From the IMG/VR virus record IMGVR_UViG_3300042882_000223, positions 1 through 23,223 of that record: 23,223 nt of DNA. One strand, written 5' to 3'. This DNA is from a virus. Below, piece by piece: positions 12,092 to 12,163 of the stretch; the stretch's first letter is position 1, and the number at the start of each line of letters is the position of its first letter. The notes under the pieces were generated by a model. That model made no database searches, was not told where the DNA came from, and saw nothing but the letters and a program-made list of their open reading frames with translations. Made by a program: the position numbers and the translations under genes.

Positions 12092-12163
12092 TTAACGATT
12101 CATTATGTACATTGTTACCTCAAAGCCGTATCGCATTTCTGTAGCTGCTGGTGATGTCCACAT
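12092..12163 (-). CDS. pqqA: PQQ precursor peptide PqqA (phage-encoded)
   Basis: ATG 12163 has AAAGGA 7 nt upstream; 23 codons then TAA. The peptide reads [13 protein letters not shown], then [10 protein letters not shown]. PqqA of the Klebsiella/Methylophilaceae type is also 23 aa, starts M-W-x-x-PA and ends F/LEVT-x-Y-x-x-N-R/K. The two residues that become the PQQ skeleton, Glu15 and Tyr19, are present with the fixed three-residue spacing, and G13, V16 and T17 are kept. In bacteria PqqD presents PqqA to the radical-SAM enzyme PqqE, which joins Glu to Tyr; PqqB, PqqC and a protease finish the cofactor. No other pqq gene is in this window, so host enzymes would be needed. The gene lies alone, opposite to its neighbours, in a 500-nt gap, and so must have its own promoter. 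It is an apparent auxiliary metabolic gene supporting PQQ-dependent methanol dehydrogenase. The match is by eye but covers all diagnostic residues. Confidence 0.9.
   Translation of the reverse strand: [23 protein letters not shown]

Follow-up and report, generated by a model that had tools for sequence, protein, structure and literature searches.

The question raised by this locus is whether a phage can carry a working gene for PqqA, the precursor peptide of the cofactor PQQ, and what such a gene would do for it. The window is the whole stretch of DNA analysed, the 23,223 bases of IMG/VR virus record IMGVR_UViG_3300042882_000223 (G000 in this analysis). An earlier note on this DNA had proposed that a 23-codon gene at 12092-12163 encodes PqqA and that the phage thereby supplies its host with the substrate of PQQ synthesis and with none of the enzymes.

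The pqqA gene of the window

The gene was found alone in the 500-nt gap described by the earlier note, between a plus-strand ORF ending at 11910 and the next plus-strand ORF starting at 12410. Its coding strand is the minus strand (Table 1), and the plus strand of the same interval holds no gene in that frame. The gene starts with an ATG codon, and its peptide has the residues and the PqqA spacing previously ascribed to it: it opens with MW..PA, carries Glu15 and Tyr19 within GFEVTMY, and closes on NR. Its 23 codons, with their own start and the ribosome site AAGGA, lie within the roughly 22-29 residues of PqqA, and E15 and Y19 have the E-x-x-x-Y spacing of the PQQ-forming residues. The peptide scored 32 bits (E=1.2e-7) against the Pfam PqqA model PF08042, for which the gathering score is 21.1, and 30.4 bits (E=2.5e-7) against the TIGR02107 equivalog, for which the cut-off is 20. 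These scores are far above chance and bear out the proposed identity. Family searches of the peptide reported PqqA models only, PHROGs held no family for it, and a TIGR02107 search of 14 control genomes gave no match. As judged from its sequence, this reading frame is a genuine PqqA.

Table 1. Positions of the features at the pqqA locus of the window.
Feature	Position	Strand	Basis
pqqA, 23-codon gene for the PQQ precursor peptide PqqA	12163-12092	minus	PF08042 and TIGR02107 scores above curated cut-offs; Glu15 and Tyr19 present
Ribosome-binding site AAGGA, 7 nt before ATG	12175-12171	minus	read directly from the sequence
18-nt inverted repeat AATAATTCTTGAATTATT, pqqA leader, possible operator	12183..12200	minus	read directly from the sequence
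Candidate extended -10 TGTTACTAT, putative promoter for pqqA alone	12232..12240	minus	positional conservation
Pseudoknotted structured RNA, 92 nt, downstream of pqqA	11901-11992	minus (same as pqqA)	covariance model 110.5 bits; covariation

The window peptide resembles the PqqA of Methylophilaceae in its length of 23 aa and in W2, P5, R11, G13, E15, T17 and Y19, and differs from the host copies in Y12, I20 and R23, which are rare variants among copies that mostly have F12, V20 and K23. At the DNA level, positions 12098-12177 (pqqA and its ribosome site) reach up to ~91% identity to pqqA loci of Methylophilaceae hosts. The inverted repeat of the pqqA leader was the same in contig L337 and had one change in L428. 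The candidate extended -10 kept its position in L337, L022 and L428, and carries one or two changes in L422, L418 and L421; it was not scored in a sigma-70 scan of the window.

The ORFs of the window include a terminase large subunit, a portal protein, a DnaB-like helicase, a Sak annealing protein (recombinase), an SSB, a RusA resolvase, a NinB protein, an M15 endolysin, and a metallophosphoesterase. Neither PqqB-E, nor any other PQQ enzyme, nor a methanol dehydrogenase was present among the ORFs scanned, and no integrase was found among them. Elsewhere in the window, a perfect TTGACA-16-TATAAT promoter was noted at 12318-12345, before the plus-strand gene at 12410, together with a 29-nt stretch 90% identical to it at 8689-8717, where the plus-strand ORF region at 8685 begins; the two are probably paired early promoters.

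Occurrence and constraint among phages

The PqqA peptide was compared by tblastn with 50,697 phage records, of which 12 matched. Nine of these are named Methylophilales or Methylophilaceae phages (P19250A, MEP301, Venkman, four Melnitz strains, MEP401, and MEP402), and pqqA stands alone in all nine. Of the remaining three, one was an uncultured Manatee Spring podovirus and two were entries for 'Acinetobacter phage MD-2021a', which was rejected as a pqqA phage because the record examined (L129, CAKLQF020000010.1) is a bacterial contig with adjoining pqqBCDE, ppk, fur, and entB. The pqqA-bearing isolates are OM43/LD28 phages, include complete genomes of cultured phages, and belong to unrelated lineages, namely the small P19250A/Venkman/MEP301 type, the T4-like Melnitz, and the Zobellviridae MEP401/402, in addition to the window type. 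By their terminases, Pelagibacter phages (SAR11 hosts) are some of the phages closest to the window and to Venkman, but none was among the PqqA tblastn matches, which argues that pqqA tracks the methylotrophic host and not the phage lineage. We infer a methylotroph as the host of the window contig.

The length of the gene and its position on the strand opposite to its immediate neighbours might suggest a chance ORF or bacterial contamination. A chance ORF is ruled out by E-values of ~1e-7 with two curated models, phage genes flank pqqA on one contig, the same gene lies in complete cultured phage genomes, and the sole clear contaminant, the Acinetobacter record, was betrayed by its adjoining pqqBCDE operon; the probability of either explanation is negligible.

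The expectation that so short a gene would be overlooked proved correct. A pqqA annotation was absent from the records examined for P19250A, Venkman, MEP301, MEP402, Melnitz, and the Manatee Spring phage. The first four have no annotation whatever at its position (28085-28153 in P19250A), and in the Melnitz and Manatee Spring phages an ORF annotated as 'hypothetical' overlaps it on the other strand. Viral pqqA exemplifies a class of genes that are missed by gene finders or called on the wrong strand.

Whether viral PqqA had been reported before was left undecided by the earlier note, and it had been. A 2020 study of Lake Baikal named it in the T4-like virus population VP_266, ascribed it to phages of Methylophilaceae, and interpreted it as an auxiliary metabolic gene (AMG) (PMC7678222); in 2026 it was listed among viral 'phosphorus cycling' genes (PMC13188868). 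VP_266 is a T4-like virus with a methanol dehydrogenase, whereas the window comes from a small phage with PqqA alone. The 72-kb record IMGVR_UViG_3300025120_009955 (G081, L044, L434, L435), with pqqA and a methanol dehydrogenase (628 aa, 608 bits), resembles the Lake Baikal virus. P19250A was said to have none of the AMGs reported in that study (PMC7678222); contrary to that statement, its genome sequence does encode pqqA. Phage pqqA is unmentioned in the papers on Melnitz, a marine OM43 phage (PMC8024684), Venkman, and MEP401/402. The breadth of pqqA among methylophages and its presence in P19250A appear to be unreported in the open-licence literature, although other reports are possible, and viral pqqA is spread much wider than reported.

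Related contigs with terminases 70-99% identical to that of the window are plentiful in IMG/VR. The gene was present in 11 of 35 such contigs tested and in five of the six longer than 32 kb, and its prevalence in the window group is uncertain because many of the 35 are short fragments. The 34-kb contig G020, a close relative of the window, has no pqqA in what looks like a real absence. Since some close relatives are without it, pqqA is not essential.

For a wider survey, IMG/VR was scanned with a degenerate DNA pattern for GFEVTMY, which forces Glu15 and Tyr19; this gave at least 120 stretches, and all of those listed were PqqA reading frames. In a second scan the pattern covered the N-terminal half only and left Glu15 and Tyr19 free, and among the matches listed Glu15, Tyr19, and the frame were kept in 134 of 134 viral loci. 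Across the 157 distinct phage PqqA sequences among the matches listed, W2, P5, R11, G13, E15, T17, and Y19 were invariant, pS was 0.58 and pN 0.10, and dN/dS was ~0.10 over all codons and 0.20 outside the scanned motif. Viral pqqA is under purifying selection. A broken frame, the loss of Glu15 or Tyr19, or a score no better than chance had been named in advance as grounds for abandoning the PqqA reading; each was looked for, and related phages keep all that the reading needs. Among the matches listed, the commonest phage PqqA peptide was identical at every residue to the one most frequent in Methylophilaceae hosts. Host-like DNA outside pqqA exceeds 150 bp at 11 of 159 viral loci; these may be misbinned or host, and the argument does not rest on them. 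Single-linkage clustering of the neighbourhoods of pqqA loci shows only that the contexts differ. Viral PqqA of other sequence types was also seen (L005, L014, L019, L025, L026, L029, L076, L080, L101, L103, L120), perhaps from phages that infect methanotrophs or other producers of PQQ.

These data bear on the competitor that had been put forward as an alternative, in which the phage peptide is a decoy that occupies PqqD/PqqE, lowers PQQ or diverts the pathway, and shuts down methanol oxidation. Such a peptide would bind the same enzymes and in excess could compete. A decoy needs no PQQ-forming residues, yet Glu15 and Tyr19 were never lost among the matches listed, at 134 loci or in 157 distinct sequences, and the commonest phage peptide is that of the host; a decoy is therefore disfavoured and considered very unlikely.

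Allele exchange and a pseudoknotted RNA

The 100 nt upstream of pqqA are 100% identical in the window and in its near relative L337, and the 200 nt before them 97.5%, while pqqA itself is 82% identical with four conservative changes (S4T, Y12F, I20V, R23K). The spacer after pqqA is unrelated, and the RNA element beyond it is again 100% identical. This pattern indicates that the pqqA allele was exchanged by recombination and its function kept. A different phage ORF in L495 (on the minus strand, preceding the RNA element) and in L540 closes with ...EYVMNK and a stop codon just ahead of the RNA element. An intact pqqA is present ~600 nt further upstream, and the EYVMNK ending resembles a recombination scar left from the last codons of pqqA.

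Exchange of alleles between near-identical phages places pqqA at a recombination junction, and host genomes have several copies of the gene, as might be expected if pqqA were a passive passenger. On this view a host gene was acquired by recombination and is retained as a short stretch of homology, serving as a recombination anchor or an attachment site, and plays no part in metabolism. A DNA anchor, however, would conserve nucleotides and not the meaning of codons, whereas the synonymous sites of viral pqqA are heavily diverged (pS ~0.58) and its protein is constrained (dN/dS ~0.1). The lack of an integrase among the window ORFs scanned also speaks against this explanation, and the loss of frame or of Glu/Tyr in phages that would support it was seen at none of the 134 loci among the matches listed. 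It is decidedly unlikely. The supply of substrate is preferred here to both explanations because a decoy needs no Glu/Tyr and because an anchor would conserve DNA, while the synonymous sites have diverged.

The RNA segment is 95-100% identical in phages with diverged surroundings, and its fold was seen from diverged copies. An outer helix encloses an AAGCCGA/TCGGCTT helix, which is crossed by a two-part helix (GTAGT/ACTAC and GTAACG/CGTTAC). In 26 distinct copies, 95.7% of cells pair and 19 of 25 pairs have changed on both sides; the covariation score was 0.522, whereas shuffles gave 0.165 and slid versions no more than 0.098. The loop residues A-x-AGGAU, UUUU, and AAU are invariant, which, on these copies, is more than a mere stable hairpin would need. 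Homologues were found at L022, L066, L072, L092, L113, L316, L417, and L476-L548. There was no match in Rfam 15 over the gathering scores, weak Rfam matches near pqqA being far under the cut-off and treated as chance, and the covariance model matched none of eight host genomes and none of six genomes of cultured phages. A Salmonella phage match was rejected, as it covered 28 nt only and gave no covariance-model match. The RNA is apparently undescribed.

When a pattern for the RNA by itself was scanned, 81 stretches matched. Of 71 newly fetched RNA loci that reached far enough, 53 have pqqA on the same strand, 5-197 nt upstream of the RNA (contigs not dereplicated); at loci without pqqA the RNA often lies behind the stop codon of a different gene. 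The nearest ORF downstream of the RNA was convergent in 57 of 65 distinct contexts, so that the RNA looks like a 3'-end element and not like the leader of a downstream gene.

The frequency with which this RNA follows pqqA (53 of 71 RNA-carrying contigs) hints at a regulated unit, and the peptide might then have another role, as a regulatory leader peptide or a PqqA-derived signal, with PQQ secondary. With the RNA downstream and the next ORF convergent in 57 of the 65 distinct contexts, pqqA is no leader of a downstream gene, and constraint falls on the residues of the PQQ substrate; another role is most improbable. The simplest guess is that the RNA protects or ends the very short pqqA message. 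It is possible, and is proposed here tentatively, that pqqA and the RNA form one mobile cassette in which the RNA is the 3' end of the pqqA mRNA (stabilising, terminating at the convergent junction, or ligand-responsive), and which would give strong expression and be swapped between phages as a unit.

Supply of substrate to the host pathway

Queries with PqqB-E matched 0 of 401 viral stretches, and the same queries matched 16-21 of 128 host loci. No PqqE over the cut-off was found in 50 pqqA-bearing or related viral records, among them the 72-kb record with methanol dehydrogenase. The adjoining pqqB, C, D, and E of a PQQ operon were thus not seen in these viral sequences. In a TIGR02107 search, eight Methylophilaceae genomes gave 1, 2, 3, 3, 5, 6, 7, and 12 PqqA matches, several separate copies per genome being usual in these hosts, and one methylotroph has been described that has five pqqA copies, of which three are solitary (PMC9851590). 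Methylophilaceae hosts appear to adjust PqqA by gene dose, and both the 1-12 copies and the five-copy methylotroph are in line with substrate dosage mattering. Tandem pqqA pairs ~200 nt apart, one of each pair being of a type that opens with MWTQP and ends in K or R, were observed at the Methylophilaceae loci L142, L146, L194, L202, L207, and L222.

A cell-free system is reported to turn added PqqA into PQQ at 70-80% (cited in PMC9851590), which suggests that extra PqqA is usable by existing enzymes. Counting against a simple dosage effect, pqq overexpression is cited as giving limited PQQ gains only (in PMC9851590), and single-gene overexpression in Gluconobacter is cited as ranking pqqB above pqqA (PMC7936290, citing others).

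PqqE with PqqD is reported to cross-link the Glu and Tyr of PqqA (Barr 2016, cited in PMC9851590). Given this chemistry and the presence of all constrained residues, the phage peptide should be a substrate. The 23-residue peptide would be made from its own short transcript, if the candidate promoter is used, and would be bound by host PqqD and cross-linked between Glu15 and Tyr19 by host PqqE. Host enzymes would mature the cross-linked peptide to PQQ, the cofactor of the host methanol dehydrogenase, and the supply of substrate may hold up the cofactor while host transcription falls; we infer a gain in PQQ or in burst. One PqqA is consumed per PQQ, so that substrate without enzymes would be the cheapest way to hold up cofactor supply.

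On this evidence, the pqqA of the window is likely to be a functional, host-derived AMG of a methylophage that supplies only the consumed PqqA substrate to the host PQQ pathway. As expected of a viral AMG, a homologue of a host metabolic gene lies within the virus genome (phage genes on the contig, host homologues up to 91% identical in DNA, isolate genomes) and is under purifying selection (dN/dS 0.10-0.20, with Glu/Tyr or frame lost at 0 of 134 listed loci). The substrate-only reading of the earlier note is supported in this respect, and its further step, that PQQ is raised in infection, stays with the mechanism proposed above.

The AMGs of cyanophages are photosystem and carbon-metabolism genes and occur in lytic phages. 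Viral pqqA is like them in being a host metabolic gene under purifying selection in phages of hosts with a specialised energy metabolism, and unlike them in that the methylophage supplies a consumed 23-residue peptide substrate and no enzyme or structural protein. The proposal is directly testable, since isolates with pqqA exist (P19250A, Venkman, MEP301, MEP401/402, Melnitz). If it is true, the dose of PqqA and not of an enzyme may limit PQQ in these cells, at which the 1-12 pqqA copies of the hosts likewise hint. Phages of abundant aquatic methylotrophs (OM43, Methylopumilus, and their kin) would then routinely feed methanol oxidation via its cofactor as sparingly as can be conceived, with a single copy of a consumed substrate, and viral infection would be tied to methanol turnover in lakes and coastal seas.
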